Shown: in pieces, positions 1,065-49,003 of the stretch
Layout of the letters: each line of letters opens with the position of its first letter
How positions within the stretch are numbered: the first letter of the stretch is position 1
The notes under the pieces: model-generated
What the model saw: only the letters and a program-made list of their open reading frames with translations
Told to the model about the DNA's origin: nothing
Databases searched by the model: none
Program-made: the position numbers and the translations under genes
Origin: Planctomycetes bacterium syqfu
GTDB taxonomy: Bacteria; Planctomycetota; Phycisphaerae; Phycisphaerales; Phycisphaeraceae
DNA: 64,000 nt
Assembly (NCBI GenBank): GCA_020974905.1
Contig: CP087563.1
Coordinates: forward strand, 3,906,001 to 3,970,000
Reading direction: 5' to 3'

Positions 1065-2258
1065 TCATACACACGCCACCGGCCAACGCTCGGTGACGAA
1101 AGACCAGTCATTGTCTCTGATCGCAGTGCGAATGTCCAATAGGAACCGCTGGAAATGACGCAGATTGTGCAACGTCACCAGGATCGGCCCGAGCATCTCC
1201 CCTGCCATGAACATATGTCGCAGGTAACTTCGACTGTATCCCCGGCTGCAACACGCACAGTCACACCCCTCGACAATCGGCCTGGGATCGTCTGCAAACT
1301 GGGCATTTCGCAACCGCATCTGACCCGTCGGCGTAAAGGCGTTGGCGTTCCGCGCATTTCGCGTCGGCAAGACACAGTCGAACATGTCCACCCCAGCCTG
1401 AACCGCAGTCAAAATGTCGCGTTCGTAGCCTACGCCCATCAAATACCGGGGTTTATCGGACGGCATCAGCGGTGCTGTGTACTCCACCACCCGCTTAAGC
1501 TGCTCAAAACCCTCACCCACGGCCACCCCGCCGATGGCATAACCGGGTAAATCATGGCTGCAGACTTCGTCCACACACCACTTGCGCTGCTCCAGGTCGA
1601 TCCCACCCTGAATGATGCCGAACAGAGACTGCTCGGACTTGCGGGCATGGGCTTTGACACAGCGTCCTAACCAGCGATTGGACCGCTCGCAGGCCAGTTT
1701 CAGTCGCTTGTGATATTTTTCCTGCTCAATGGCATGACGGGTCAAACCGCTCCCGGAAGTCGACTGCCCTTCCGACGCATCCCGCTGAGCTGCTGGCGGG
1801 CAGTCGTCAAAGGCCATCATGATGTCCGCGCCCAATTCATTCTGGACCTGCATCGAACGTTCCGGCGTCAACTCGATCCGCGCACCATTGAGATGACTTT
1901 TGAAGACCACGCCATCCTCGGTGATTTTGTTGGCATCCGATAAGCTGAAGACCTGGAACCCACCCGAGTCGGTGAGCATGGGTTTGCCCCACGTGGTCCA
2001 TTTTTGTAACCCGCCCATTTTGGCAACAAGCTCACTGCCGGGGCGAAGCATCAGGTGATAGGTGTTCCCCAGAATGATCTGCGCACCAAGTTCCCCCAGA
2101 TCATCGGGCATGATCCCTTTGACGGAACCCTGCGTCCCCACAGGCATAAAGGCGGGTGTGTCGAACGAACCATGAACGGTCGTGACGCGGCCAAGCCTTG
2201 CATGGGTGGTTGCATCCTTAACCAAACATTCATATTTCAAAGCAGGTGAATCGGACAT
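1065..2258 (-). CDS. tgt: Queuine/archaeosine-type tRNA-guanine transglycosylase (bacterial TGT)
   Basis: Replaces guanine 34 in GUN-anticodon tRNAs with the queuosine precursor preQ1. The product is 397 residues. Visible signatures are LTDSGGFQVFSL with an active-site aspartate, FGIIQGG, the GGVAVGE loop, FDCVLPTRNARN, and the zinc site CDCACC followed by a downstream histidine. An insert (roughly AAQRDASEGQSTSGSG) follows the FDDCPP segment and is longer than in E. coli Tgt. The ATG at 2258 is used. A reading frame open to 2315 would translate the neighbouring repeat and is rejected. No Shine-Dalgarno is present, but TATCAT lies six bases before the ATG, suggesting a leaderless mRNA. It is first in a tgt-yajC-secD run. 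Confidence 0.95.
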   Translation of the reverse strand: MSDSPALKYECLVKDATTHARLGRVTTVHGSFDTPAFMPVGTQGSVKGIMPDDLGELGAQIILGNTYHLMLRPGSELVAKMGGLQKWTTWGKPMLTDSGGFQVFSLSDANKITEDGVVFKSHLNGARIELTPERSMQVQNELGADIMMAFDDCPPAAQRDASEGQSTSGSGLTRHAIEQEKYHKRLKLACERSNRWLGRCVKAHARKSEQSLFGIIQGGIDLEQRKWCVDEVCSHDLPGYAIGGVAVGEGFEQLKRVVEYTAPLMPSDKPRYLMGVGYERDILTAVQAGVDMFDCVLPTRNARNANAFTPTGQMRLRNAQFADDPRPIVEGCDCACCSRGYSRSYLRHMFMAGEMLGPILVTLHNLRHFQRFLLDIRTAIRDNDWSFVTERWPVACV

Positions 2259-2264
2259 GGGGGA

Positions 2265-2270
2265 ATGATA
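2265..2270 (-). promoter_or_regulatory. -10-like box TATCAT six bases before tgt ATG
   Basis: Minus-strand TATCAT with a six-base gap to the ATG; transcription would begin at or next to the start codon. No -35 box is recognisable. The heptad repeat begins immediately upstream at 2273, where a -35 region would be. Same arrangement as at mtnP, purQ, recJ and others in this window. Confidence 0.55.
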
Positions 2271-2272
2271 CA

Positions 2273-2478
2273 GGAGGGAGTAGGCAATAGGGAGTAGGGA
2301 GTAGGGAAAAGGCAAAAATCATCACACTGAACTGAATACAACGATTTTGATTCGTCCTTGTCTGATCAGATTTGCACATTAAGTCAATCAAATCAACTTG
2401 TTGAATTCATGACGTCGCACGATTCCCAAAAGCCTGTTTTTATAGTGCTTTTTCTATTCCCTAATCACTACTCCCTGC
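2273..2478. repeat. Heptad inverted-repeat element, copy B
   Basis: Left arm 2273-2312 (GGGAGTAGG units followed by AAAAGGCAAAA) and right arm about 2448-2478 (CCCTAATCACTACTCCCT) are inverted relative to each other with about 135 bases between. Same family as 445-542, 18607-18713 and 59162-59271. Lies between tgt and the terminator of the next minus-strand gene. Confidence 0.75.
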
Positions 2479-3935: not shown

Positions 3936-5300
3936 ATGACTCATGAACATGAACAAAATAAGCCGGACTTCTTCGAGCGGATGCTCGACGGCGTGGACAT
4001 GCAGCAAATCGCTGACCGCCGCCCCCGGAAGTCTGAGAACAAACCCCGTCGGATCATGCGCCGGGTGGATGACTCGGTCAAAGATGTCCGGGCCAATGTC
4101 AAGGATGCCGCCCAGGCGGTTGCCACGTGGGTTGCCAGCGTTGTCAATCATGACACCGAGCAGACCCAGCTCAACGAGATTCTGGATCATTGCCTGCGCC
4201 CAGGTCCGCAATTGGATCAAATCAATTACACTGCACTTGCTCAGGAAATTAACCAGTCCATGCACACCGACCTCTCGCCGCGTCGGGTGCAGACCGCGAT
4301 CCAACATCTGCGAGCCAAACGGCAGCCTGCAACCATGACCGACTCTCGACCCAAACTCCAGGACCAACTCAACGCCCTGCACAAAGATTTGCAGACCAAT
4401 CACCAACTGCTCGTTTCCGAAACCGGCGACGATCAGGCCAATCTCCACCGACGCATCGGCACGGAGATCCTTGCCATCGTCCGCGTCGCTGCCGGCCGAC
4501 TCATTGAAAACGACTTTGGTGAAGGCATCGCCCAGGATATTGATATTGATGATGTCGAATCACGCTTCCTGGATTTCGTCAAGGATGCAGTGACCGAACA
4601 TCAAGGCAACACCCTCACGCGAGACCTGCATAAGTTGCTGGTCGATCTGTGTGACTATGACGGCTCAGCGACATGCGACATGCGCCTCGTCGTTAACGGC
4701 AGTCGCGTGGTCTGTGATCTGCTTGATCCGGACTCACTTCCCGGCGTGGTGGCCCAGCTTAACGTGCTCGTGGCGGGACGACACATTCTGGATAGTGAAC
4801 TCTACGTGACGGAACTGAACCGACTTTCCGAAGCAGCTTACGTGTTGAAAAATGACGATGCGACCCAGACCTATCTGAACTGGGTCAAACGTCAGAGTAC
4901 CGAGCAGCGTGTTCCTTCGCCGGTGCGTGTGAGCAGCTACTGTCTGAACAACCTTGCAACGCATGTTTATGACCGCATCTTCACTGGCGAGTTGATTGAA
5001 CCTGCCAACTGGATGCCCAAGGCTGACGACGCGCTGAACAAGACCCGTCAGCGTGACAGCGGTTTTGATTTGATCCCGGTGACGGAGTTAGTGGGCTTGG
5101 TGGCGCATGCCCACCTCCGTCATTCGCCGAACATTGTGCGTGAACATTTACAGCAACTTGGTGAAAGTAAGACCATTGACCTGCTCATCAAGCTCATCCG
5201 TTTTGACAACTGTCAACAACTGGTCACCGAAGCACGTGAACACGCGTTGGCAGTCTACCCACAGATCAACCAACAGATCACCCCTGCATTGGATGATTGA
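3936..5300 (+). CDS. Hypothetical protein, 454 residues, soluble helical
   Basis: No family recognised. I start at the ATG at 3936 because AAGGTGG at 3921-3927 is well placed. A GTG at 3924 is in frame but lies inside that site. The N-terminal 80 residues are charged (KPDFFERMLDG, ADRRPRKSENKPRR). They are followed by a segment with LNEILDHCLRPG and LSPRRVQTAIQHLRAKR, which reads like a small helix-turn-helix-like region, then a long mainly helical domain. There is no signal peptide or membrane span, so it is probably cytoplasmic. A strong terminator at 5329-5360 closes the unit. The upstream 49-residue gene may share its transcript. Confidence 0.75.
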   Translation: MTHEHEQNKPDFFERMLDGVDMQQIADRRPRKSENKPRRIMRRVDDSVKDVRANVKDAAQAVATWVASVVNHDTEQTQLNEILDHCLRPGPQLDQINYTALAQEINQSMHTDLSPRRVQTAIQHLRAKRQPATMTDSRPKLQDQLNALHKDLQTNHQLLVSETGDDQANLHRRIGTEILAIVRVAAGRLIENDFGEGIAQDIDIDDVESRFLDFVKDAVTEHQGNTLTRDLHKLLVDLCDYDGSATCDMRLVVNGSRVVCDLLDPDSLPGVVAQLNVLVAGRHILDSELYVTELNRLSEAAYVLKNDDATQTYLNWVKRQSTEQRVPSPVRVSSYCLNNLATHVYDRIFTGELIEPANWMPKADDALNKTRQRDSGFDLIPVTELVGLVAHAHLRHSPNIVREHLQQLGESKTIDLLIKLIRFDNCQQLVTEAREHALAVYPQINQQITPALDD

Positions 5301-5328
5301 TTAACGATCATCCAGCCCCACCTCACAA

Positions 5329-5360
5329 GGCTGCATCTTCCACTGGATGCAGCCTTTTTT
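5329..5360 (+). terminator. Rho-independent terminator
   Basis: Nine-base-pair perfect stem 5329-5337 with 5346-5354 (GGCTGCATC/GATGCAGCC) followed by six T. Lies about 30 bases after the stop of the 454-residue hypothetical gene. Confidence 0.9.
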
Positions 5361-5372
5361 GTGTTGTTCTCA

Positions 5373-5422
5373 TCCCGGTCAATATGACCGGGCTATATAG
5401 CCGAGTCATCTTGGCTCGGTTG
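5373..5422. repeat. Double-hairpin intergenic repeat, copy 1
   Basis: Two adjacent hairpins: CCCGGTCA/TGACCGGG at about 5373-5391 and CCGAG/CTCGG at about 5401-5419, joined by CTATATAG. A second copy with the same two hairpins, slightly changed joint and flanks, occurs at 12317-12370. It lies in the 300-base gap before the PEP-CTERM gene. The rest of that gap (5423-5604) shows nothing clear. Confidence 0.7.
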
Positions 5423-5604
5423 GTTTGTGGTTCAACCCACACACTGCTTCAAGCACCCTCTCATCGCGCCAACCCCTACAACCATCACACTGTCTGATAA
5501 CAGTGATGAAAATCTCTGCCCCAAATTCGCTTTATCGCAAACACATGATCCTCTTGTGCAACGCGAAAAGAGAAATGTCGTACCTCATGCACAAGGATAA
5601 GATC

Positions 5605-6633
5605 ATGAAACGCGCACTTGGGAAATTTGCAGCCGTCTTGGGTTTGGGTTTAACGCTGGGCTTTGGTGCTCAGGCAACTCAGGCAGCTGATATCAATCCG
5701 TTTAATTTCAACGTCTACTCACTGAGTGACATCGGCACATCAGGCTCCGGCTACGGTTCGGACTTTCAAGGTGTCGCTGGTGCAGCAGGCAACGCCTACT
5801 TCACCAACTTCTCACTCAACGATCTGAATCAAGCCCAGGTCGTCCCCGGTTATTCATTGACCGTTGGTGGTGATGCGATCATCTCCGGCCAAATCAATAA
5901 CGGTGGCATCGAAGCGGGTAGCAATGTTGCCATCAACAACACCGGCGTCTTTGGTGATGTCTATGCAGGTGGCAACCTCAGCGGTATCGGCGGCACAGTC
6001 AACGGCAATGCCACACTCGGTGGAACCGACAACACCACCAATGCTGTCACCGTCACCGGCACGATCACGCAGAACACCAGCTATGCTGCTTCACTGAATT
6101 TCAATTCCATCAACGACTACCTGACCACGTTCTCCACCAGCATCAACAACACTGCGGACACCACCGGCTACACCAACAACTACGGTGAACTGATCATCAA
6201 CGCAGCTTCAGGCGACAACTACGTCACCATCGATGCTGCTGAACTCAACAGTGCCTGGGGTGTGACCATCAACGGTGCAGCAGACAGCGTGGTCTACATC
6301 AATGTCGATGGGATTAACGTCAGTCTGGATTCAACCACATGGACCTACAACGGTCTGACTTCAGGTGATGTGCTGCTGAACTACGGTGAGGCGACCGACT
6401 TGTCACTGTCCGGCGGCAACATCGTTAACATTCTGGCTGCCTTTGCCGACGTGGACTTCAGCTATGGACATGTTGACGGCAACCTCATTGCTGGCAATCT
6501 CACCGGTGCTGGGCAGGTCAACCTTGGTGGCTTTGAACATGGTGTGGTCCCCGAACCGTCATCGGCTCTGGCATTACTCGCTGGTTCAACCGCCATGCTT
6601 ATCCGTCGCAAGCGTCGCGCCCGCATCGCCTGA
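5605..6633 (+). CDS. PEP-CTERM-anchored secreted protein, choice-of-anchor A type
   Basis: A 342-residue exported protein. The ATG at 5605 is chosen because AAGGA lies seven bases upstream and a signal peptide follows directly (MKRALGKF ... ATQAAD). The body, rich in Gly/Asn/Thr, has the choice-of-anchor-A pattern: FNVYSLSDIG, a DFQGVAGAAGNAYF segment and a series of GG-repeat blades (VGGDAIISG, AGGNLSG). The C-terminus is a canonical PEP-CTERM sorting signal: VPEPSS, a hydrophobic span and RRKRR. Such proteins are processed by exosortase at the cell envelope, and no exosortase is in this window. The last 48 bases overlap the 3' end of the opposite-strand kinase gene. Confidence 0.9.
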   Translation: MKRALGKFAAVLGLGLTLGFGAQATQAADINPFNFNVYSLSDIGTSGSGYGSDFQGVAGAAGNAYFTNFSLNDLNQAQVVPGYSLTVGGDAIISGQINNGGIEAGSNVAINNTGVFGDVYAGGNLSGIGGTVNGNATLGGTDNTTNAVTVTGTITQNTSYAASLNFNSINDYLTTFSTSINNTADTTGYTNNYGELIINAASGDNYVTIDAAELNSAWGVTINGAADSVVYINVDGINVSLDSTTWTYNGLTSGDVLLNYGEATDLSLSGGNIVNILAAFADVDFSYGHVDGNLIAGNLTGAGQVNLGGFEHGVVPEPSSALALLAGSTAMLIRRKRRARIA

Positions 6634-37472: not shown

Positions 37473-39479
37473 ATGAATCTCAAACAACTCACTGGGTTCC
37501 GGGGATCTGCATGGACTTGCGTAACATTGATTCTCAGCCTGATTGTGACGACGCATGCCCAACACCAGGAAACTCAGCCAAACAATGCATTCATGAACCT
37601 GAGCATTGAGGAACTCGGCCAATTGGATGTCACTGCCGTCACGGGTGTCACCGAGACCTGGTTCCAATCACCGGCTGCGGTGTATGTGATCACTCAGGAC
37701 GACATTCAGCGCACCGGACATCAAAGCATTGCGGATCTGCTGCGCATGGTGCCCGGTGTGAATGTCGCACAGATCTCATCCAACAATTGGACCGTCGGCA
37801 CACGCGGACTTCAAGGCAACTTCACCGATAGCATGCTCATGCTTGTGGATGGACGCAGTGTCTATGACCCGCTGCAGTTTGTCATCCGCTGGGACACACA
37901 GGATATGATTCTCGATGACATTCAGAATATCGAAGTCATCCGTGGTCCGGGTACGACGCTCTGGGGCTCCAATGCCATCAACGGTGTAGTGAGTCTGACA
38001 ACCAAACCGGCCAGTCAAACGCAAGGTTGGCTGTTTGATACGGTCATCGGCAATCATGAACAACCGACCATCAGTCTGCGTTATGGTGACAAAATTGAGG
38101 ACAATATGCACTTTCGCATCTGGAGCAAGTATGCCAATCGTGATGCATTCAAGCATGCTGATGGCAATGATGCTCCAGATGACTGGGACATGTTTCGCAC
38201 TGGTTTTCGTTTTGATGTCGACGCGCCGGATCAATTGCATTGGTCAATGCAGGGAAGCTTTTTTCACACCGATCAACTCGGTGGTGATTCAAACCTTCCA
38301 GATCCCTCAACGTTCTTTGCTTCAAGCAACGTGATCACCGACGGTCGCATCAACAGCGGATATCTTCAGGCAACCATCACACAGCAGCGGGATGACGAAA
38401 ACAAATGGTCCATTATGGCAGCCTACGATCGAACCACCCGCACGACGCATGACGGTTTTGAATCCCTGCGGGATATCATCGATCTGGACTACCGCCAGCG
38501 TTACGCACTGGATGATGATCACCTGCTGATCTGGGGCGCATCCTGGCAGTACACCTCGGATCACACCGAAAAATCACCTGCTGTGACATTCACCCCACAG
38601 GACAAATGCACCAACCTGTTTACGGCATTTATCCAAAGTTCCATGCAGTTTTTTGATGACAAACTCGCGCTGGTTATCGGTTCGGAATTTGAACACAACA
38701 ACTACACAGGCTTCGAGTATCATCCCAGTGCCCGAATCAGCTGGACTCCGGATATCAATAATAATCTCTGGGCGTCAGTCTCTCGGGCAGTGCGCACCCC
38801 AGGTCGTGTCAATACCTCATCCCAAATCACGCCATTCTATGTCGACACCGGCATCCTCGGGGGCGGTCCCCCTTCGGGCATTCTCATCCCATTAACCATC
38901 GGCAACGGGCAGGATCTCGAACCCGAAGTTCTCCTCGCCTACGAAATGGGTTACCGGGTCCACCTGGGCCAACAGCTGCTTGTTGACTGGACCGCATATA
39001 TCAACAACTACGACAACCTGATCACCAGTTCCCAAACAGACTTCGGCCAACTCAACAACAACCTGCAAGGTCAGATTTACGGGACTGAGATTTCCATCGT
39101 CTATAATCCTGCACCTTCATGGCGACTTGAAGCAGGCTATGGCTATTGCCGTTCGTTCCTCCAAGGCGATCGGGAAGTGGAATATGAAACCAGCTATCCC
39201 GCCAATCAATTTCATCTGCGTTCCTATCTGGATATCGGATCAGATCTTGAGATCAACACCGCGTTGTACTACGTGGACAATGCCAACGCACAACAGGCAG
39301 ACAGCTATCTCAGACTGGATACCGGTCTGACCTGGCAGGTCAAAAGTAATCTCAGTATCAGCCTGTGGGCTCAGAATCTGCTGGATAATCAGCACGCTGA
39401 ATTCTTTGACGTGGAACGCAGTGCCGAAGCTTCTGAGGTTCCCCGCTCAATCTATGCAAGGATCAACATGACGTTTTAA
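37473..39479 (+). CDS. TonB-dependent outer-membrane receptor, copy 1
   Basis: A 668-residue beta-barrel receptor with signal peptide ending VTTHAQ and AAGGA before the ATG. A conserved entry segment NLSIEELGQLDVTAVTGV leads into the plug domain (PAAVYVITQDDIQRTGH, VPGVNVAQ, RGLQGN, LMLVDGRSVYDP, IEVIRGPGTTLWGSNAINGV). A 22-strand-type barrel follows, ending in RSIYARINMTF with the terminal Phe used for outer-membrane assembly. It lacks STN and carboxypeptidase-like N-terminal domains, so it is not a FecA- or SusC-type receptor. Substrate is unknown: iron complexes, vitamins or other small ligands are possible. It is first of three tandem receptor+YfiR pairs, with only three bases between it and the next gene. 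Confidence 0.9.
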   Translation: MNLKQLTGFRGSAWTCVTLILSLIVTTHAQHQETQPNNAFMNLSIEELGQLDVTAVTGVTETWFQSPAAVYVITQDDIQRTGHQSIADLLRMVPGVNVAQISSNNWTVGTRGLQGNFTDSMLMLVDGRSVYDPLQFVIRWDTQDMILDDIQNIEVIRGPGTTLWGSNAINGVVSLTTKPASQTQGWLFDTVIGNHEQPTISLRYGDKIEDNMHFRIWSKYANRDAFKHADGNDAPDDWDMFRTGFRFDVDAPDQLHWSMQGSFFHTDQLGGDSNLPDPSTFFASSNVITDGRINSGYLQATITQQRDDENKWSIMAAYDRTTRTTHDGFESLRDIIDLDYRQRYALDDDHLLIWGASWQYTSDHTEKSPAVTFTPQDKCTNLFTAFIQSSMQFFDDKLALVIGSEFEHNNYTGFEYHPSARISWTPDINNNLWASVSRAVRTPGRVNTSSQITPFYVDTGILGGGPPSGILIPLTIGNGQDLEPEVLLAYEMGYRVHLGQQLLVDWTAYINNYDNLITSSQTDFGQLNNNLQGQIYGTEISIVYNPAPSWRLEAGYGYCRSFLQGDREVEYETSYPANQFHLRSYLDIGSDLEINTALYYVDNANAQQADSYLRLDTGLTWQVKSNLSISLWAQNLLDNQHAEFFDVERSAEASEVPRSIYARINMTF

Positions 39480-39482
39480 AAC

Positions 39483-40109
39483 ATGAATGAACAAATCATC
39501 ACAACACGCGTAATCAAAGGAGCGATCAGCGTCATGCTGATGGTTGTGATGTTATGGTTAATCTTGGCCCAGCAAGTTCAGGCACAAGACAATCAAAGCA
39601 AACAAATCGATCAGATCAAGGTGGCATACATGGCCAACTTCATCCGATTCACGCAATGGGACAAAGACGCCAACGTAAAAGATAACCAGGCACAACCATG
39701 GATTATCACCATCGTCGGAGACTCGGCTTTTGTTAAAGATGTCAGCGTTGCATTCCCCAACGGCAAGTTCCTGGATCGACCGATTGTGCTTGTTGACCTG
39801 CCTGCCCTGCGAGATGAAGACAACCCCATTGATGAACAGACGCAAAAGAAACTGCTTGCCAGTCACGTGATTTACCTGCGAAACAGTAATCTGCGGGATC
39901 ACAGAGACATTCTTTCCTTAAGTTCATCGCCTGATTTTCTCTACCTGTCCGACATGCCTGGGATGGCCAAAGCCGGGGGGATGATTGAATTGTGTACGCT
40001 CAAAACACGTGTCACGTTCAAAGTCAATGCCAAGGCCATCCGCAACGCCAAAATTCGTGTCAGTTCCAAAGTGCTGCGACTGGGAATTCCCGTCACATCC
40101 AATCCATGA
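39483..40109 (+). CDS. YfiR-family (DUF4154) periplasmic protein, copy 1
   Basis: A 208-residue exported protein, signal peptide to about residue 35 (ending QVQAQ). Family marks are IKVAYMANFIRFTQW near the mature N-terminus, ITIVGD, HVIYLRNS, and the C-terminal block GGMIELCTLKTRVTFKVN ending KIRVSSKVLRLGIP. In Pseudomonas, YfiR is the periplasmic inhibitor of the CHASE8-containing diguanylate cyclase YfiN. It begins three bases after the receptor stop codon. The mature protein has one cysteine only, so the two disulfides of Pseudomonas YfiR cannot form. Confidence 0.88.
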   Translation: MNEQIITTRVIKGAISVMLMVVMLWLILAQQVQAQDNQSKQIDQIKVAYMANFIRFTQWDKDANVKDNQAQPWIITIVGDSAFVKDVSVAFPNGKFLDRPIVLVDLPALRDEDNPIDEQTQKKLLASHVIYLRNSNLRDHRDILSLSSSPDFLYLSDMPGMAKAGGMIELCTLKTRVTFKVNAKAIRNAKIRVSSKVLRLGIPVTSNP

Positions 40110-40212
40110 CAAACAGTCCTTGCGGAAACCGGTCGGATCAAGTCCACCTTGGTTATCCATCTGGATCCTATAAAAAACACAGTTGGTTTTGATCAACAAA
40201 CATCAAAGAATA

Positions 40213-40232
40213 CCCGATGATTCGAGTATAGC
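40213..40232 (+). promoter_or_regulatory. Conserved dyad and TATAGC box upstream of receptor copy 2
   Basis: CCCGATGATTCGAGTATAGC matches the sequence at 43010-43028 (CCCGATAAATCGGGTATAG), in the same place before the next receptor gene, 28 bases upstream of the start. It may combine an operator dyad with a -10-like TATAG box. No counterpart this close to receptor copy 1 was seen. Confidence 0.4.
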
Positions 40233-40259
40233 TTCTCAACCATCAAAACAGGCAGCATT

Positions 40260-42269
40260 ATGACATCACCCTCCCAATGCCCACACAAACCGAGCACAGT
40301 CAATTGGCTGCGTATTGCCTTGATGCTCTGCCTGGGTCTGCTTCTGCCGCAGTTACTAACTGCACAAGAGCAACACGAGAATGCCTTCCTGAATTTGAGT
40401 ATTGAAGAACTGGGGCAACTGGATGTCACCTCAGCAACGGGCGTTGAAGAACAGTGGTTCAGAGCCCCCGCAGCCATCTATGTGATCACCCCAGAAGACA
40501 TTCAACGTACCGGCCATCAAACGTTACCCGAATTGCTTCGGCTGGTCCCGGGATTGGATGTCGCGCATGCCACATCCAACCAATGGTCCATCGGCGCACG
40601 TGGGATCAAAGGCAATTATGGTGACAGCCTGTTGATGCTTATTGATGGTCGGTCACTTTATGATCCATTGCTTGGATATATCAGATGGAACACGCAGGAT
40701 CTGGTTCTCAATGACATCAAGAATATTGAAGTGATCCGCGGCCCCGGTGCCACGCTATGGGGTTCCAAAGCTGTCAACGGCGTAATCAATGTGACAACCA
40801 AATCCGCACGTGACACGCAGGGCTGGTATCTATCGGGAATCGGTGGCAACAAGCAACGGGCCAACATCTCTGCGCGATATGGTGGCCAAATTGATGACAA
40901 TACTTATTTCAAAATCTGGACCAAGTATGCCAATCACGGCCCGTCGAAAAAGATCAATGGTCAAGATCATTACGATGACTGGGACTACTACAGTTCAGGA
41001 TTCCGCATTGACACCGAAGCGCCGGATAACCTAACGTGGGCTTTGCATGGCGGTTTTGGTTTTTCTGATCAACTCGGTGGGATGTCAACTGAACCGGCAC
41101 CCAATACGCACTTCGGTGTCAATTCAATCATCGGGGATAACCAATCGTTAAACTATTTCCTTCATGCCACTCTCAAAAAGCAGGTCAGTGATCAGAACAA
41201 ATGGAATGCCTCAGCGTCCTACCAGCACAGTACCGAAAAAATTCGAACCGATCTGAAATTATTACGAGACACCTTTGATCTGGACTATCGTCATCGTTAT
41301 GCAACCAGCGATACACAGTTGTTTGTCTGGGGTGCTTCGGCACGCATGAGTACGGATCACACCTATCAATCAACCTACGCAGAATATATTCCTGACGAGG
41401 AATTGACGTATAACTTCAGCAGTTTTCTGCAAAGCTCCACGACGTTTTTTGATGATCATGTGTCCGTGATTCTGGGTTCGAAGTTTGAGTATAACAATTA
41501 CAGTGGCTTTGAAATCCAGCCGAGTATTCGTGCCACCTGGACACCGGATAGCAATAACACGATCTGGGGTGCGGTCTCCCGAGCTGTCCGAACCCCCAGC
41601 CGCAGTAGCGTTGATGCCAGAAGCACAGCCTTTTTCGTCGACCCGAGTTTACTGTTGGGCGGCCCTCCATCCGGTTTCTACCTGCCTGCGGTCATTGCGG
41701 CCAATGGCGATGTTGAATCTGAAAAACTCGTTTCCTATGAATTGGGTTATCGCTCACGTTTACCGGGTAATCTGACGTTGGATCTGGCAACTTACTTTAA
41801 TCACTACACCGACCTGGTGAGTATCAGCAATACGTTTGACATCAATAACAACCTGGCTGGTGAAGTCTTCGGTGGCGAAATCAATCTGGTCTGGACGCCT
41901 GCTCCCACCTTGCGTGTCGAAGCCGGATACAGTTACGCCAAAACAAGCATGCATGGCGATCTCTCAGACGAAGTCCAGGCGAGTTACCCAGAGAATCATT
42001 TCCATCTGCGAAGCTACCTGGACATCAACCAGGATCTGGAGTGCAACGCAGCGTTGTACTACACCGGTGAAAACCGTACCTTCAGTGCCGATCCATATCT
42101 ACGTCTGGATATCGGAATGACTTGGCGCCTGAATGCCAATACGTCACTGAGTCTCTGGGGGCAGAACCTGCTGGACAACCAGCATCCAGAACTCATCGAT
42201 GTGTTCCAAATGCCCGAACCTACTGAAGTGCCCCGCAGCCTGTACCTTCAATTGAACATGACTTTCTAA
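40260..42269 (+). CDS. TonB-dependent outer-membrane receptor, copy 2
   Basis: A 669-residue receptor clearly related to copies 1 and 3 through its whole length. It has a signal peptide ending LLTAQ, the entry segment NLSIEELGQLDVTSATGVEEQ, and plug motifs YVITPEDIQRTGH, ARGIKGNYGDSLLMLIDGRS and EVIRGPGATLWGSKAVNGVI. It has the same barrel layout and a C-terminus RSLYLQLNMTF. It starts 150 bases after the first YfiR gene and ends two bases before the second. Differences from copy 1 are spread along the barrel, consistent with an old duplication followed by divergence in the extracellular loops. Confidence 0.9.
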   Translation: MTSPSQCPHKPSTVNWLRIALMLCLGLLLPQLLTAQEQHENAFLNLSIEELGQLDVTSATGVEEQWFRAPAAIYVITPEDIQRTGHQTLPELLRLVPGLDVAHATSNQWSIGARGIKGNYGDSLLMLIDGRSLYDPLLGYIRWNTQDLVLNDIKNIEVIRGPGATLWGSKAVNGVINVTTKSARDTQGWYLSGIGGNKQRANISARYGGQIDDNTYFKIWTKYANHGPSKKINGQDHYDDWDYYSSGFRIDTEAPDNLTWALHGGFGFSDQLGGMSTEPAPNTHFGVNSIIGDNQSLNYFLHATLKKQVSDQNKWNASASYQHSTEKIRTDLKLLRDTFDLDYRHRYATSDTQLFVWGASARMSTDHTYQSTYAEYIPDEELTYNFSSFLQSSTTFFDDHVSVILGSKFEYNNYSGFEIQPSIRATWTPDSNNTIWGAVSRAVRTPSRSSVDARSTAFFVDPSLLLGGPPSGFYLPAVIAANGDVESEKLVSYELGYRSRLPGNLTLDLATYFNHYTDLVSISNTFDINNNLAGEVFGGEINLVWTPAPTLRVEAGYSYAKTSMHGDLSDEVQASYPENHFHLRSYLDINQDLECNAALYYTGENRTFSADPYLRLDIGMTWRLNANTSLSLWGQNLLDNQHPELIDVFQMPEPTEVPRSLYLQLNMTF

Positions 42270-42271
42270 AG

Positions 42272-42919
42272 ATGCAAAAAAACAAGTACACAATCTGGTG
42301 CTTGATGCGATCATGCCGACCGGGCATGATGCTATTTTGCATGTTGCTGGCGATGGGTCATTTCGTTCCCAAAGTTTGGGCAGAAGAAAAACCGGAGCAT
42401 AAATACGATGAAATTAAAGTTGCGTATATGGTGAATTTCATTCGACTATCTGTTTGGCCGGATTTGAATCAGGATCATCCAGACAAGCCGATGAACATCA
42501 CCATCATCAGTTCGCCGGACTTTTTTCAGATCGTCAAAAGTGCCTTTCCCAAAGGAGAAATTCAGGACCGCAAGGTTCAACTCACACACTGGACCGCGCT
42601 TGAAATGGATGGCAAGAATATCAGCGATCAGCAACTGAAAATCATCAAGCAAAGTCATCTGATCTATCTGAGTCAAGGCCGTTTGTTTGATCTGCAAACT
42701 CTCAAAAAAACCAACCCCACCCCACCCTACCTGCTCATTGGTGACATGCCCAAATTTGCTCAACACGGCGGGATGATTGGCTTACACAAACGCCAATCCG
42801 GGATTGCGTTCACAGTGAATATCAAAGCCATCCGGCAAGCAGACTTATTTATCAGTTCCAAGGTTCTGCGTCTGGGCACACCTGTCAAGGAAATCACATC
42901 ACCTTCAGCAAACCATTGA
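42272..42919 (+). CDS. YfiR-family (DUF4154) periplasmic protein, copy 2
   Basis: A 215-residue exported protein. It has a long N-terminal signal region with three cysteines (IWCLMRSC, LFCML) and cleavage probably after KVWAE. The family core follows: IKVAYMVNFIRLSVWPD, ITIISSPDFF, HLIYLSQG, PPYLLIGDMPKFAQHGGMIGL and AIRQADLFISSKVLRLGTP. The mature part has no cysteine. It starts two bases after the receptor copy 2 stop, so it is translationally linked to it. Related to copies 1 and 3, nearer to copy 3 in the PxYLL-GDMP-FA-GGMIGL block. Confidence 0.88.
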   Translation: MQKNKYTIWCLMRSCRPGMMLFCMLLAMGHFVPKVWAEEKPEHKYDEIKVAYMVNFIRLSVWPDLNQDHPDKPMNITIISSPDFFQIVKSAFPKGEIQDRKVQLTHWTALEMDGKNISDQQLKIIKQSHLIYLSQGRLFDLQTLKKTNPTPPYLLIGDMPKFAQHGGMIGLHKRQSGIAFTVNIKAIRQADLFISSKVLRLGTPVKEITSPSANH

Positions 42920-43009
42920 TATACCGAATCAAAGGTCCGATAGCTCCAACTTTCCTTCGATCTTTCTATCTGATGTTCCCGCATGGATATAAACATGCTG
43001 ATCAATATC

Positions 43010-43028
43010 CCCGATAAATCGGGTATAG
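43010..43028 (+). promoter_or_regulatory. Conserved dyad and TATAG box upstream of receptor copy 3
   Basis: CCCGATAAATCGGG is a perfect inverted repeat (CCCGAT-AA-ATCGGG) running into TATAGAT. It is the clearest of the two copies; the other is at 40213-40232. Confidence 0.45.
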
Positions 43029-43061
43029 ATTTGCATACTGAATCTGCGGTATTTGATAAAA

Positions 43062-45074
43062 ATGATCAATATCACACAAAAAGCACGCTCAATCCAACAG
43101 CTTTCACGATGGTTCGTGGCATTGCTGCTATTGATTACACTCCCCCATCTGGCGACGGCACAAACACCAGAAGCCCATGAAAATATCTATCTGAACTTGA
43201 GTCTTGAAGAACTGGGTCAACTGGATGTCACGTCGGTTACTGGTGTCGAAGAACAGTGGTTCAAAGCACCTGCTGCCATCTACGTGATCACACCTGAAGA
43301 TATCCAGCGAACCGGCCATCGTACACTGGCGGAGTTGTTACGCATTGTCCCGGGTATCAATGTCGCATCGTCTTCGTCCAATACATGGTCGATTGGCGCA
43401 CGCGGTATCCGAGGTAGTTATGGCGACAGTCTGCTGATGCAAATCGACGGCCGTTCGGTTGACGATCCACTGGCAGCCTTCGTGCATTGGGACACCGTGG
43501 ATCTGATCCTCGAAGACATTGGCAATATCGAAGTGATCCGTGGACCGGGCGCAACGCTTTGGGGAGCGGATGCAGTGAGTGGTGTGATCAATATCACAAC
43601 CAAACCTGCCAAGGATACACAAGGCTGGCTGGTCAACACTGTCACAGGGACGTATGAACATGCAGGACTCTCGCTGCGTTATGGCGACAAACTCGACGAC
43701 AATGCCTATTTCAGAATCTGGGGCAAAGGCAGCTTCAAGGATGCCTACGAACGGGCGGACGGCTCGAATGCACACGATGACTGGAGCATGTTCTCCGGCG
43801 GGTTCCGCATTGATAACCAGGCTCCAGATGGCTTGGGCTGGTCCTTGCATGGTGGTGTGACGCACAGTAATCAACTCAGTGGTACATCCAACACCCCCGA
43901 CCCACTACACGCCAATAAATATCTTGAAATGATCAACGACGGCCGTGTTCACAACTTCTTCCTTCAGGCCAATATCGACAAGCAAGTCACAGAAAATAAT
44001 AAATGGTCCCTGCTGGCATCCTATGACCACACCAGTCGTTCATCAATTAACAACGTCCAGTTCGACCAGAACAAGTTCAACCTGGATTACCGCCACCGCT
44101 GGGCGATCACCCCTGAACAATTGTTTGTCTGGGGCGCTCAGTGGACCATGGTCAGTGATCATATCGAAAGCCAACAATACGTCTACTACTCGCACGAAGA
44201 AGAAACACTGCATACTTTCAGTGCCTTTCTCCAAAGCTCGACCAAACTCTTTGATGACACATTAGCTCTGGTGTTTGGCACGAAAATCGAACACAACGAT
44301 CTTTCAGGATTTCAGATTCACCCCAGTGCTCGCCTGACCTGGACACCTGATCAGAACAACACGCTCTGGGGCGCCATCTCACGTGCTCCAAGAACACTGG
44401 GGCGAGGCACGACCGATTTGAACCTGGTTGCTGTCTACGTCGATCTGGGTGATTTTGGCGGTCCCCCTGGTGTACTCTACCCCTTGCCTGCAAGTGGCAG
44501 TCGTGATCTGGAACCCGAAGAACTCATCGCCTATGAAATGGGTTACCGATCACACCTGACCAAAGACATCACACTTGACACCTGCATTTACGTCAACGAT
44601 TACACCAACCTGCTCAATATTGATCTGGATACCTTCAATCTGATCAATGGTTACGAAGGGCAGATCATCGGAGGAGAAGTCAACCTGATCTGGCAACCGG
44701 CCCATACCTTCAGACTCGAAGCAGGCTACAGTCATGCACACACCAATCTCAATGGTGAAGTCTTTGAAACCTTTGATCTGAATGAAGCCTATCCTGATAA
44801 CCAGTTCCACCTGCGAACCTATCTGGACATCGGACGCGATATGGAACTTAACGCAGCGTTGTACTACGTCGACAGCGTCCCAAGCTATGTCGCTCAAAGC
44901 TACATCCGTCTGGACATGGGCTTGACATGGCGTCTGAATGACCATGTGCAAATCGGTCTCTGGGGTCAGAATCTGCTTGACCCACAACACAATGAAATGA
45001 CCGATAGAGATATTAACCAGTACACCGGCCAAGTCCCGCGCAGTTTCTATTTCCAAGTGAATATGACATTTTAA
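43062..45074 (+). CDS. TonB-dependent outer-membrane receptor, copy 3
   Basis: A 670-residue receptor with signal peptide ending HLATAQ. Entry segment NLSLEELGQLDVTSVTGVEEQ; plug motifs YVITPEDIQRTGH, ARGIRGSYGDSLLMQIDGRS and EVIRGPGATLWGADAVSGVI; C-terminus RSFYFQVNMTF. The ATG at 43062 gives a normal signal peptide; a TTG at 43053 is also in frame. No strong ribosome binding site is seen before either. Followed after six bases by the third YfiR-like gene. Copies 2 and 3 share more of the plug with each other (VEEQWF-APAAIYVITPEDIQRTGH) than with copy 1. Confidence 0.9.
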   Translation: MINITQKARSIQQLSRWFVALLLLITLPHLATAQTPEAHENIYLNLSLEELGQLDVTSVTGVEEQWFKAPAAIYVITPEDIQRTGHRTLAELLRIVPGINVASSSSNTWSIGARGIRGSYGDSLLMQIDGRSVDDPLAAFVHWDTVDLILEDIGNIEVIRGPGATLWGADAVSGVINITTKPAKDTQGWLVNTVTGTYEHAGLSLRYGDKLDDNAYFRIWGKGSFKDAYERADGSNAHDDWSMFSGGFRIDNQAPDGLGWSLHGGVTHSNQLSGTSNTPDPLHANKYLEMINDGRVHNFFLQANIDKQVTENNKWSLLASYDHTSRSSINNVQFDQNKFNLDYRHRWAITPEQLFVWGAQWTMVSDHIESQQYVYYSHEEETLHTFSAFLQSSTKLFDDTLALVFGTKIEHNDLSGFQIHPSARLTWTPDQNNTLWGAISRAPRTLGRGTTDLNLVAVYVDLGDFGGPPGVLYPLPASGSRDLEPEELIAYEMGYRSHLTKDITLDTCIYVNDYTNLLNIDLDTFNLINGYEGQIIGGEVNLIWQPAHTFRLEAGYSHAHTNLNGEVFETFDLNEAYPDNQFHLRTYLDIGRDMELNAALYYVDSVPSYVAQSYIRLDMGLTWRLNDHVQIGLWGQNLLDPQHNEMTDRDINQYTGQVPRSFYFQVNMTF

Positions 45075-45080
45075 ACCACA

Positions 45081-45710
45081 ATGACAATGGGTAAAGGCAT
45101 AACTCGACTGACCATGAACACCTGTTGCCGGGTGTGGTTGTGGTTATGCGTGCTGGGATTGGTATTCACATGGTGTCAGCCGATTTTTGCCCACGCTGAA
45201 AATGAGGAAAAGGTCGACAAAATCAAGGTAGCCTACCTGGTCAACTTCATGCGCCTTACCACATGGAAAGCGTTTGAAGACAACGCCAAGACACCCCCCT
45301 TTACAATCACTGTTATCGCGGGGCAAGACTTTGTGCAATTGATGCAAAAAGCCTTTAAGGACGGAAAATTCAACGATCGCAAGGTGGTGATTCATCATCT
45401 GCCTCGCAAGGCACTTCAGAACAACACAATCAGCCAGACCGATCAGCAAATCCTTTCAAGCAGTCACCTGATTTACATGCGCGATGCCGGACTGGTCGAA
45501 TTGCAGACATTTCAAAGAAGCAACATCACCCCCGATTACTTACTTGTCGGTGATATGCCCCAATTCGCCGAATATGGTGGCATGATTGGTCTGCGTCAGG
45601 ATCAATCCGGAATTACTTTTACCATCAATCTCAAAGAGATCCGGCGATCGAATATACACGTGAGTTCCAAACTATTACGACTTGGTGTGAAAGTCCGCAG
45701 CAAGGATTAA
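45081..45710 (+). CDS. YfiR-family (DUF4154) periplasmic protein, copy 3
   Basis: A 209-residue exported protein. Signal peptide to about residue 40 (ending IFAHAE); the core has IKVAYLVNFMRLTTWK, ITVIAGQDFV, HLIYMRDAG, PDYLLVGDMPQFAEYGGMIGL and NIHVSSKLLRLGV. Cysteines occur only in the signal region. An ATG at 45087 is an alternative start. It is seven bases upstream of the hybrid kinase, the closest of the three to it, and probably the ancestral partner of the kinase (inference). Confidence 0.88.
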   Translation: MTMGKGITRLTMNTCCRVWLWLCVLGLVFTWCQPIFAHAENEEKVDKIKVAYLVNFMRLTTWKAFEDNAKTPPFTITVIAGQDFVQLMQKAFKDGKFNDRKVVIHHLPRKALQNNTISQTDQQILSSSHLIYMRDAGLVELQTFQRSNITPDYLLVGDMPQFAEYGGMIGLRQDQSGITFTINLKEIRRSNIHVSSKLLRLGVKVRSKD

Positions 45711-45717
45711 CCCAGAC

Positions 45718-47691
45718 ATGCCTCATCGGAAATATCGACAATTCGGCAGCCGCCTGGTCATTTTGACAATGACGGTCTGTAGCATTGCCGTGATTCTGGC
45801 ATGTGTGAGTTTTATCACGTTCCAGTTGTCGCAGCTTCGCCCCAAGGCTTTGGAAACCGCCAACTCCATTGCAGAGATGACTGCGATTCACAGTTATGCT
45901 GCCGTCGCCTTTGAAGACAAGCAGGCTTTAAACGAAACCCTCGAATCACTCAAAGCCATTCCCGAAATTCAATGGGTTCATGTAAGTAACGCACAGGGTG
46001 TTGCACTGAGCGAATACGTCAGTGAGAAAAACGATCAAAAACGCAATCACTCTCAGCATCAGGCACCCAAGTTCGACGAAATCAAGGTTCGAATGCCTAT
46101 CAAACATGGGAACCAGACCATTGGCATCCTTGAGTTGCACTATAACCTGAGGCCTGCCTTATCCAATCTGGCGTTTGAATTTCTGATTCTGCTGATCATC
46201 GGTTCGCTTGCAGTGGGCATCTCCGTCTTCATTGCCATCCGCAAACACCGGGATCTGATCCGCCCCATCCATGCGTTGACACAGGCTGCCGATAAAGTCA
46301 GCAAAACCGGCAACTATGCTGTCCGTGTCACGCAACAAGCTGAAAAAGACGAGGTGGGCATGCTCATCAATGTCTTTAACGGCATGCTCGATAAAATTCA
46401 GAACGTCCATGACGAATTGGACAGTCGTGTCAAAGAACGTACCGAACAACTCAACGAAGCCTTGGAACAAGCCATGGCTGCCAATCAGGCCAAGAGTCAA
46501 TTCCTGGCCAACATGAGCCACGAAATCCGAACCCCCATGACCGCCATCCTGGGCTTTAGCGATATCCTGCAGGAACCGGACCTGTCTCGTGACGATCAAT
46601 TCAAATATCTGCAGACCATCGAACGCAACGGTAAACATCTGCTGGCCATCATCAATGATATTCTCGACATCTCCAAAATCGAAGCTCAGCAGATGCAGGT
46701 GGAAAACATCCCAACCAACCTGCTGGAGATTCTGCATGATGTCCAGTCGTTGATGCAGGTCAAAGCGACCGAAAAATCGCTGAAGCTCAATTTCAATATC
46801 CAGGCCCCCTTCCCGCAAACCATTCACACCGATCCCATCCGCGTACGCCAGGTGTTGGTCAACCTGATCTCAAATGCCATCAAGTTCACCGAGAAGGGGC
46901 ACATCACGGTGACGGCCCAATTAACCGTGCCGACCAATCTCAAAAAATCGCTCATCAGTTTCGATGTCCGGGACACTGGTATCGGCATGTCCCCACGTCA
47001 GGTCGATCACATCTTCAAACCCTTCACACAGGCAGATGAAACCACCACGCGACGTTTTGGTGGCACGGGACTGGGCCTGACGATCTCACAGAAACTGGCC
47101 AACATTCTCGGCGGTGATCTGACGGTCAGCTCTGAAGAAGGCTATGGCAGTTGCTTCACCTTCACCATTGCCAGCGATCAGATCAGTACCAAGGACATGA
47201 TTACATCTTCTGGGTCCATGGGGAAAATTCTCCTGAACGCCGAAGCCCCATCAGAACAACCCCATCCCAAAGCGATGGCATCAAACAGGCAACTCCAAGG
47301 TATTCGTGTCCTCTTGGCAGAAGACGGAATCGACAATCAGAAACTCATCGGTTTACTGTTAAAACGTGAGGGAGTTGAATTGACCATCGTCGACAACGGG
47401 CAACTGGCAGTCCAGGCCATTCACGAATCGAAGTATTCATTTGATCTTGTGTTGATGGATATGCAGATGCCGGTAATGGATGGTTACGCTGCCACACGTC
47501 AGTTGCGACGTGAAGACTACAACCGCCCGATTGTCGCATTGACCGCCAATGCAATGAATAAAGACCGCGACGCCTGTCTCAAGGCCGGTTGCGATGACTT
47601 CATGACCAAACCGGTTAACAAGTCTGCGTTGATCAAACTCGTTGCCCAGTATGCCGGACGCGAGTTGACCAAAGAGGATCAGGCTGCCTGA
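45718..47691 (+). CDS. Hybrid sensor histidine kinase with CHASE8 periplasmic domain
   Basis: A 657-residue inner-membrane kinase. Span 1 is about residues 12-36. The periplasmic domain has the CHASE8 pattern (IHSYAAVAFEDKQALNETL, then AIPEIQWVHVSNAQG). Span 2 is about 150-172, then HAMP. HisKA carries the phosphoacceptor His268 in MSHEIRTP. The ATPase has NLISNAIKFTE, RDTGIGM, FKPFTQAD and GTGLGL. A C-terminal receiver has Asp581 in LMDMQMPVMDGY and MTKPV. CHASE8 is the domain that YfiR controls in the diguanylate cyclase YfiN. Here it sits on a kinase directly downstream of three YfiR-like genes. There is no output domain, so a phosphotransfer protein and regulator elsewhere are expected. 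Confidence 0.92.
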   Translation: MPHRKYRQFGSRLVILTMTVCSIAVILACVSFITFQLSQLRPKALETANSIAEMTAIHSYAAVAFEDKQALNETLESLKAIPEIQWVHVSNAQGVALSEYVSEKNDQKRNHSQHQAPKFDEIKVRMPIKHGNQTIGILELHYNLRPALSNLAFEFLILLIIGSLAVGISVFIAIRKHRDLIRPIHALTQAADKVSKTGNYAVRVTQQAEKDEVGMLINVFNGMLDKIQNVHDELDSRVKERTEQLNEALEQAMAANQAKSQFLANMSHEIRTPMTAILGFSDILQEPDLSRDDQFKYLQTIERNGKHLLAIINDILDISKIEAQQMQVENIPTNLLEILHDVQSLMQVKATEKSLKLNFNIQAPFPQTIHTDPIRVRQVLVNLISNAIKFTEKGHITVTAQLTVPTNLKKSLISFDVRDTGIGMSPRQVDHIFKPFTQADETTTRRFGGTGLGLTISQKLANILGGDLTVSSEEGYGSCFTFTIASDQISTKDMITSSGSMGKILLNAEAPSEQPHPKAMASNRQLQGIRVLLAEDGIDNQKLIGLLLKREGVELTIVDNGQLAVQAIHESKYSFDLVLMDMQMPVMDGYAATRQLRREDYNRPIVALTANAMNKDRDACLKAGCDDFMTKPVNKSALIKLVAQYAGRELTKEDQAA

Positions 47692-47708: not shown

Positions 47709-48665
47709 TTAATTACGGTACTTCACGTGGCACGCATGACACGCATTTCGGATCATTTTGAACTGCGCATCTAGTAATGCCGGTTGCGCTTTACCTTCTA
47801 CAATCATTGCTTCAAGCTTCGAAGCATGTGCAGCGGACTCGAGCATCCAATCCGTGAGTTCCCGGGGCTCTGCCTTGACATCCGCGTCATCCTGTAAATG
47901 ACGTAACAAGTCTGCCAACCGTCCTGCTTCAGTTGCAGGGATCAGGTCGGGGTGATCTGCGGGTGTCTGCCAACCGGCTTTCTGGATGTCCTTGAGATGT
48001 TCGGTCGCATCGTCGATGGCCACCATCGCATCGACAATGCCCTTGGTCTGCCAGGTCTGCGGGAAAGCGTTGGACGCTTGGTTGAGTTTGGCATCGTTGG
48101 CGATCTTCGCGTGACTGACATCACTGTAGAGCCCCTTGTACTTGGGGGATGTCCCCGAGACTTTCATGCGACTGACGGCATCTTCAGATGTCATGCGTCC
48201 AAGCGTTGCGCAAGCTGCGCCGGTGGCTGCAGCGGAGCGATGTTTGCCATGATGACAGTGAATGTAAATCGGCCCGTCCAAGTCACGCACCGCCCGCGCT
48301 AACTCCAACTGGCGATCCGTCGGCACACCGTCGTAACCAATCGGTAAATGCACATATCGCAAACCGAACTTACTCGCAGCAGCAAGATCCGGCTTGGCAC
48401 CATCGACGGAGATCACGGTTTTAACACCCATCGCCTTAAGTGATGCAAAGCCATCTTCACCTTCTGGCACCGCGCCGGAGAACGTGTCAGGAGTGTAGGC
48501 CACCACGTTATGAAGTCCGGGTAAATCACTGGGTTTGTCATCTTCCACCGAAGGTGTCGTGATGGGTTGAACGTGTGCAGCAGGTTCGACGGACTGTGAC
48601 TGACACGCGACAAGCACCATGCCTGCAAACAACATCACGAGTAATCCAACACCATATTTGGACAT
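47709..48665 (-). CDS. Lipoprotein with Cys-x5-Arg phosphatase domain joined to a cytochrome c'-like helical domain
   Basis: A 318-residue exported lipoprotein (LVLVAC, lipid Cys21; AGAGGA before the ATG at 48665). Residues about 55-180 form a tyrosine/dual-specificity phosphatase fold. VKTVISVDGA precedes a loop IHCHHGKHRSAA in which Cys137 and Arg143 make the Cys-x5-Arg active site. Residues 200-318 are helical and end NACHACHVKYRN, with a single haem-binding CxxCH (Cys309, Cys312, His313) next to the C-terminus, the arrangement of cytochrome c' and c556 four-helix proteins. The fusion suggests a haem-dependent switch or electron carrier beside a phosphatase (inference). It is convergent with the hybrid kinase, with 17 bases between stops. 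Confidence 0.82.
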   Translation of the reverse strand: MSKYGVGLLVMLFAGMVLVACQSQSVEPAAHVQPITTPSVEDDKPSDLPGLHNVVAYTPDTFSGAVPEGEDGFASLKAMGVKTVISVDGAKPDLAAASKFGLRYVHLPIGYDGVPTDRQLELARAVRDLDGPIYIHCHHGKHRSAAATGAACATLGRMTSEDAVSRMKVSGTSPKYKGLYSDVSHAKIANDAKLNQASNAFPQTWQTKGIVDAMVAIDDATEHLKDIQKAGWQTPADHPDLIPATEAGRLADLLRHLQDDADVKAEPRELTDWMLESAAHASKLEAMIVEGKAQPALLDAQFKMIRNACHACHVKYRN

Positions 48666-48788
48666 TTGTTTTCCTCTGGATAACAAACCATGCGAGACAT
48701 TGCAGCTTACATGAATCTCACATGCATGCCTACTCATAGATTGTCCTGTTTTTGCATGCTTTTGTGTCGTATCTTGCGAAGACGAGAA

Positions 48789-49003
48789 GGCACCAGCGTT
48801 GCGTCAATACGTGATCTGGCAAGTTCAATATCATTTGTTTGCATGCGATCTTTCATTTCGTCATTCCCGCCCCCCGGAAGTTGGGAATCCAGTGACATAC
48901 AGTTGACGCTTGCAGGTTCCACTGGACTCCCGCCTGCGCGGGAGTGACGAGAACGAGATTGCTCGTACGACAAGTCACCTGCGCTGTATCGCAACACGGC
49001 TTT
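48789..49003. repeat. GTTGCGTCGCAAC-type repeat apparently split by a REP-containing segment
   Basis: GGCACCAGCGTTGCGTC at 48789-48805 and TCGCAACACGGCTTTA at 48989-49004 together recreate the continuous sequence found at 52370-52398. About 180 bases that contain a REP-like hairpin lie between the two halves. Confidence 0.5.
48859..48949. repeat. REP-like 91-base hairpin element, copy 2
   Basis: Same length and nested inverted arms as 30198-30288 (CGTCATTCCCGC...GGGAGTGACG; GGAATCCAGTG...CACTGGACTCC). Located between ilvB and the phosphatase-cytochrome lipoprotein gene. Confidence 0.85.

Follow-up and report, generated by a model that had tools for sequence, protein, structure and literature searches.

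The 64,000-nucleotide stretch of planctomycete DNA analysed here (the window) contains a gene at 47709–48665 whose product raises an unusual question: what would a cysteine-based phosphatase fold and a haem c domain do on one chain, anchored as a lipoprotein in the envelope? An initial annotation had assigned to this interval a lipoprotein signal, a Cys137-x5-Arg143 loop and a single C-terminal CxxCH. The position is right, with the minus strand as coding strand, and all three elements are found in the translation, as the lipobox LVAC with Cys21, the loop HCHHGKHRS, and the motif CHACH (Cys309, Cys312, and His313).

Reading frame and export signal

The minus strand of 47709–48665 is an uninterrupted frame of 318 residues, with the stop codon at 47709–47711, and the plus-strand frame of the same interval is broken by several stops; all features of the gene given below are on the minus strand. 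A longer open reading frame of 342 residues exists at the same gene, but the shorter start is preferred because a Shine-Dalgarno-like AGAGGAA (48671–48677) lies just 5' of its ATG. Residues 1–21 (48603–48665) form a signal peptide in which Cys21 is predicted to be lipidated; in the corresponding alignment column, 30 of 74 rows have Cys, and the others are gapped there through trimming. To judge by dN/dS relative to an 89%-identical congener (0.067 for the phosphatase part and 0.097 for the cytochrome part), both halves are under purifying selection.

The phosphatase-fold domain

The first domain (approximately residues 48–196; 48078–48524) adopts a PTP/dual-specificity phosphatase (DSP) fold in the AlphaFold2 model of the whole protein, which was calculated with 73 relatives (mean pLDDT 92.8, pTM 0.83), and in which this mixed α/β domain is followed by helices at residues 209–229, 243–259, 268–290, and 295–316. 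In structural alignments of the predicted model, VHZ (Z 16.1, rmsd 2.7, 141 aligned residues) and TpbA (Z 15.2, rmsd 3.2, 155 aligned) superimpose well on this domain; the DUF442 protein 3gxh is also close (Z 14.7), and the atypical DSPs PFA-DSP1 and SIW14 are among the matches. The assignment agrees with sequence searches. In Pfam, the window protein by itself matches the PTP-fold family Tc-R-P above the cut-off (1.6e-6), and a profile of 20 relatives finds TpbA in the PDB at 2.6e-7, as does Foldseek with the domain model (9e-6). TpbA, the periplasmic dual-specificity phosphatase of Pseudomonas aeruginosa (PDB codes 4r0s and 2m3v), thus shares with the window protein an exported PTP/DSP fold and the Cys-x5-Arg loop, but lacks a haem domain.

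Residue invariance was read from a merged set of 106 full-length sequences, whose members from the phylum sample were picked for having both the P-loop and CxxCH. In the P-loop (residues 136–144; 48234–48260), Cys137, the predicted nucleophile, and Arg143, predicted to bind phosphate, are invariant, as expected for the Cys-based PTP/DSP superfamily, and so are His136, Gly140, and His142. Elsewhere before the cytochrome domain, the invariant positions are Gly64, Pro67, Val87, Asp88, His106, Pro108, Tyr111, Tyr176, and Gly178, with Asp88 as the sole invariant acidic residue of the phosphatase-fold domain.

The cytochrome domain and predicted haem site

The second domain (approximately residues 205–318; 47712–48053) is a class II cytochrome c domain of the c'/c556/cb562 type, to judge by the combination of a four-helix bundle and one C-terminal CxxCH. 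AlphaFold2 predicts the bundle in the whole protein and also for the domain alone (pLDDT 92.6, pTM 0.85), in line with the four-helix bundle that the initial annotation expected in residues 200–318. In VIA-align, the top matches are cytochromes, led by Kusta0087 of Kuenenia (Z 12.7, rmsd 2.7, 105 aligned) and followed by c' and cb562 structures (Z about 11.5–12), but helical bundles reach Z values of about 13 through their common arrangement alone, and a range of 11.5–12.7 is not decisive. The sequence profile therefore carries the weight for the cytochrome identity: the profile of 20 relatives finds cytochrome c' in the PDB at 4.4e-5 and cytochrome b562 at 8e-4 across the whole bundle, and the corresponding values in a further profile comparison are 4e-5 and 0.003. 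Foldseek gave no match with E < 0.001 for the bundle alone. In Pfam, the window protein alone has a sub-threshold cytochrome c' match at residues 272–317 (Cytochrom_C_2, 18.8 versus a cut-off of 26.5 bits), a cut-off that is passed by several orthologues, including L018 (29.5) and L040 (26.9).

Only four residues are invariant across the entire cytochrome domain (n = 106), namely Met214 (48024–48026) and the three residues Cys309, Cys312, and His313 of the putative haem c attachment motif at residues 309–313 (47727–47741), which is followed by Arg317 in 105 of the 106 sequences. Together, the four would make up a complete haem c site. In the structural alignments, Met214 is level with residue 7 of b562, the distal haem ligand of that protein, and with residue 32 of Kusta0087, the Cys that is replaced in the C32M entry 6r6n, if helix 1 is left ungapped. 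The HMM alignment to b562 is three residues off this structural register at Met214. Given this offset and the assumption of an ungapped helix, we infer that Met214 is probably an axial ligand. Class II cytochromes c have an axial His, which in c556 is joined by a Met. The genome of the host contains cytochrome c assembly genes.

Cytochromes c' and c556, the engineered cb562 and Kusta0087 have in common with this domain the four-helix bundle and the single C-terminal CxxCH followed by an aromatic-Arg pattern. The known class II cytochromes are small stand-alone proteins, whereas the present domain is nearly always joined to a PTP-fold domain and differs further in its invariant helix 1 methionine.

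Conservation and distribution of the fusion

The fusion of phosphatase-like and cytochrome c'/c556-type domains that the initial annotation proposed is supported by domain searches and AlphaFold2 alike, and the search for orthologues with both domains returned full-length members that all contain both motifs. P-loop and CxxCH occur together in 20 of 20 relatives; in 80 of 80 top matches of a genome scan that was seeded with the phosphatase motifs and not with CxxCH, and of which the best 80 loci were kept, a choice that favours full-length relatives; and in 35 of 35 full-length members drawn from some thirty groups of family level in the phylum, a figure that rests on a prior phylum search in which every full-length match had both motifs. 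Pairing that is maintained to this extent indicates that the co-occurrence is not due to chance. No loss of CxxCH is seen across Planctomycetota in the merged set (106 of 106), the phylum-sample part of which was selected for both motifs. The spacing between the P-loop and CxxCH is 160–187 residues across the family.

Matches were obtained in 37 of 101 near-relative genomes and in 203 of 392 genomes across Planctomycetota, the stronger ones being mostly full-length. The fusion is carried by roughly one third or more of the planctomycete genomes sampled. Three metagenome-assembled genomes titled as other phyla also contain full-length copies and are assumed to be mislabelled. Very long relatives (500–1000 residues) were considered as extra-domain architectures, but contain no further Pfam domains and probably reflect frame extension. 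Among plasmid records, full-length matches are confined to two, both planctomycete, which are annotated as ‘hypothetical protein’ and ‘dual specificity protein phosphatase’; since these are the only names given in the public records examined, the haem half appears to have been overlooked. One of the homologues, on a plasmid of Planctomyces sp. SH-PL62 (L158), has a DUF3365 gene and a gene cluster for cytochrome c oxidase and SCO in its vicinity, as a single case.

Coupling of the two domains

When the cytochrome domain alone was searched in 149 genomes, 48 of 49 strong matches coincided with a phosphatase match, and the remaining one is located at a contig end. At weaker scores (E 1e-6 to 1e-3), the matches are to small cytochromes that are encoded separately. 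In this clade, fusion of the cytochrome domain to the phosphatase is therefore near-obligate. In three genomes (G101, G227, and G238), the best match has a similar phosphatase loop without CxxCH, and a separate class II cytochrome c gene with an export-like N-terminus follows directly downstream on the same strand; the phosphatase frame in G238, with its unusual N-terminus, is possibly mis-assembled. The unfused pairs are found in L146 (phosphatase at 4991–5566, then cytochrome at 5650–6081), in L160 (2419–2967, then 1976–2419, minus strand), and in L147 (4982–5929, then 4273–4920, minus strand). For other phosphatase-only relatives, with HCxHGxDR-type loops, no cytochrome neighbour was found. 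In L139 (6864–8594), the fusion gene is followed after 27 bases by another class II cytochrome-like gene, which stands alone and has a CGGCH motif.

In one genus, a glutathione peroxidase (GPx) domain is added at the N-terminus of the same chain. Chains composed of GPx, PTP-fold, and class II cytochrome c domains are present in L006, L008, L009, and L011, and also in L041, L058, and L083, where the GPx assignment is by Pfam (GSHPx) for L006 and L011 and by motif and alignment for the other five. These fusions point to thiol/peroxide redox biology. The obligate fusion, the adjacent unfused pairs, and the GPx fusions all speak for functional coupling between the domains, with the fused-or-adjacent pattern as the strongest evidence that they act together.

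General-acid position and possible reaction chemistry

Canonical phosphotyrosine chemistry normally requires a general acid in the WPD loop. In the profile alignment, Asp105 of TpbA, the general acid of that enzyme, is level with Asp112 of the window protein (48330–48332). This Asp is not conserved in the fusion family: it is present in 46 of 106 members, and the column has undergone 19 changes on a tree built leaving that column out. Canonical phosphotyrosine chemistry is therefore doubtful for the family. The invariance of Cys and Arg argues that the thiolate is nevertheless in use, and this bears on the idea that the PTP domain is a dead or very slow module that binds phosphorylated partners, which would make the protein in effect a targeted cytochrome. 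Such a role would be compatible with the labile acid position and with the lack of evident partner genes in the neighbourhoods examined, but the invariant Cys nucleophile, Arg, P-loop Gly and His, and Asp88 (n = 106) are unlike typical pseudophosphatases, and we consider it improbable.

PTP enzymes that act without a WPD-loop acid are on record, among them the plant and fungal atypical DSPs PFA-DSP1 and SIW14 (PMC9038691). By analogy, the window protein could be an acid-independent phosphatase for pyrophosphate-like or polyphosphorylated small molecules, with the haem either sensing the redox state or forming a module for docking and electron transfer. The structural matches to PFA-DSP1 and SIW14 and the invariant basic P-loop residues are in keeping with this possibility. 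Nevertheless, these enzymes are not exported haem proteins, they are not the top match, nothing points to substrates of this type in the envelope of planctomycetes, and in the window protein the acid position is occupied by Asp, so that this explanation is unlikely, and somewhat more so than the one considered next.

The Cys of the PTP fold might instead perform thiol/persulfide (sulfurtransferase-like) or other thiol redox chemistry, with the haem as electron acceptor or donor in a two-centre redox enzyme. A general acid would be dispensable for such chemistry, which fits the labile position, and the TIGR01244/Blh (DUF442) sulfurtransferases, which have a PTP-like fold in common with the fusion, are used together with redox partners. 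The structural closeness of 3gxh, the GPx fusions, and the one homologue near cytochrome oxidase genes are further points in its favour. The matches to the DUF442/Blh family are weak, however: membership was rejected at 18.1 bits for TIGR01244 and 20.7 bits for NF040641, far below the NCBIfam cut-offs of 85.85 and 625, respectively. Moreover, the sulfurtransferases have no haem domain, the phosphatase TpbA is the best profile and Foldseek match, and no sulfur-oxidation genes occur among the neighbourhoods examined. We regard thiol or persulfide chemistry as rather unlikely, though it and the acid-independent phosphatase are the two chief alternatives to the explanation that follows.

The explanation that we prefer, with a probability of about 0.45, is a redox-coupled Cys enzyme of the envelope that is most likely a phosphatase. 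The exported lipoprotein would have two working parts, of which the N-terminal PTP/DSP-fold domain, by means of the Cys137/Arg143 loop, most likely dephosphorylates a substrate in the periplasm or envelope. In the C-terminal class II cytochrome c domain, one haem c would be attached covalently via Cys309 and Cys312, its axial ligands being His313 and probably Met214. Electron exchange between the haem and the periplasmic redox pool would couple the redox state to the enzyme, either through a conformational effect or by control of how far the catalytic thiolate is oxidised. The architecture of lipoprotein, phosphatase-like fold, and class II cytochrome domain is well supported; haem attachment, Met ligation, catalysis, and the direction of control are what we infer from it, and with them the haem-gated or redox-linked phosphatase suggested in the initial annotation. 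In broader terms, there is an even chance that this phylum-wide family places PTP-fold Cys chemistry on the envelope directly under the control of, or in concert with, a covalent haem c, be it as a phosphatase for proteins or small molecules that is gated by haem c, or as a new Cys/haem two-centre redox enzyme.

The redox sensitivity of PTP-family cysteines is well known. Both folds are known as well, but in a literature search of open-licence PMC papers we found no published account of a PTP-fold/haem c fusion, and as far as we found, the fixed pairing as a phylum-wide lipoprotein family is undescribed there. The pairing suggests an undescribed route linking the redox state of the envelope to a cysteine-based enzyme. 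If the haem gates the enzyme, it would provide a direct handle on redox sensing at the unusual planctomycete envelope.

Genomic neighbourhood

In the window, the fusion gene and a CHASE8-HAMP-histidine kinase-receiver gene are convergent, and the latter is preceded by three consecutive pairs of TonB-receptor and YfiR-like (DUF4154) genes (37473–47691 for the whole cassette). In its periplasmic parts, the cassette corresponds to a YfiNR-like system, with a hybrid kinase in place of the GGDEF output. TpbA acts on TpbB/YfiN, which makes a link between the fusion protein and this cassette attractive, and a TpbA-like regulator of the CHASE8 kinase/YfiR system would also agree with TpbA being the closest solved structure by sequence and with the presence of the cassette next to the gene in two congeners (G001 and G003). 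In the congener G002, however, the fusion gene is located directly between ftsK and ilvB, and the cassette is missing at that place; outside the genus, no YfiR/CHASE8 neighbour was found save for a weak kinase match in L065. Unlike in TpbA/YfiBNR-type systems, the association is thus limited to some members of one genus. The cassette is therefore judged incidental and the functional tie rejected; that the protein is a regulator of this kind seems very improbable.

Among the homologues, no conserved neighbour gene was found that would name the substrate or the electron partner, and the recurrent neighbour clusters consist mostly of antisense frames that overlap the fusion gene, or of generic genes, for instance those for ABC transporters. 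Upstream of the gene, at 48850–48965, the window contains a dispersed repeat of about 95–100 bp, of which the genome has at least 40 copies with 83–93% identity.
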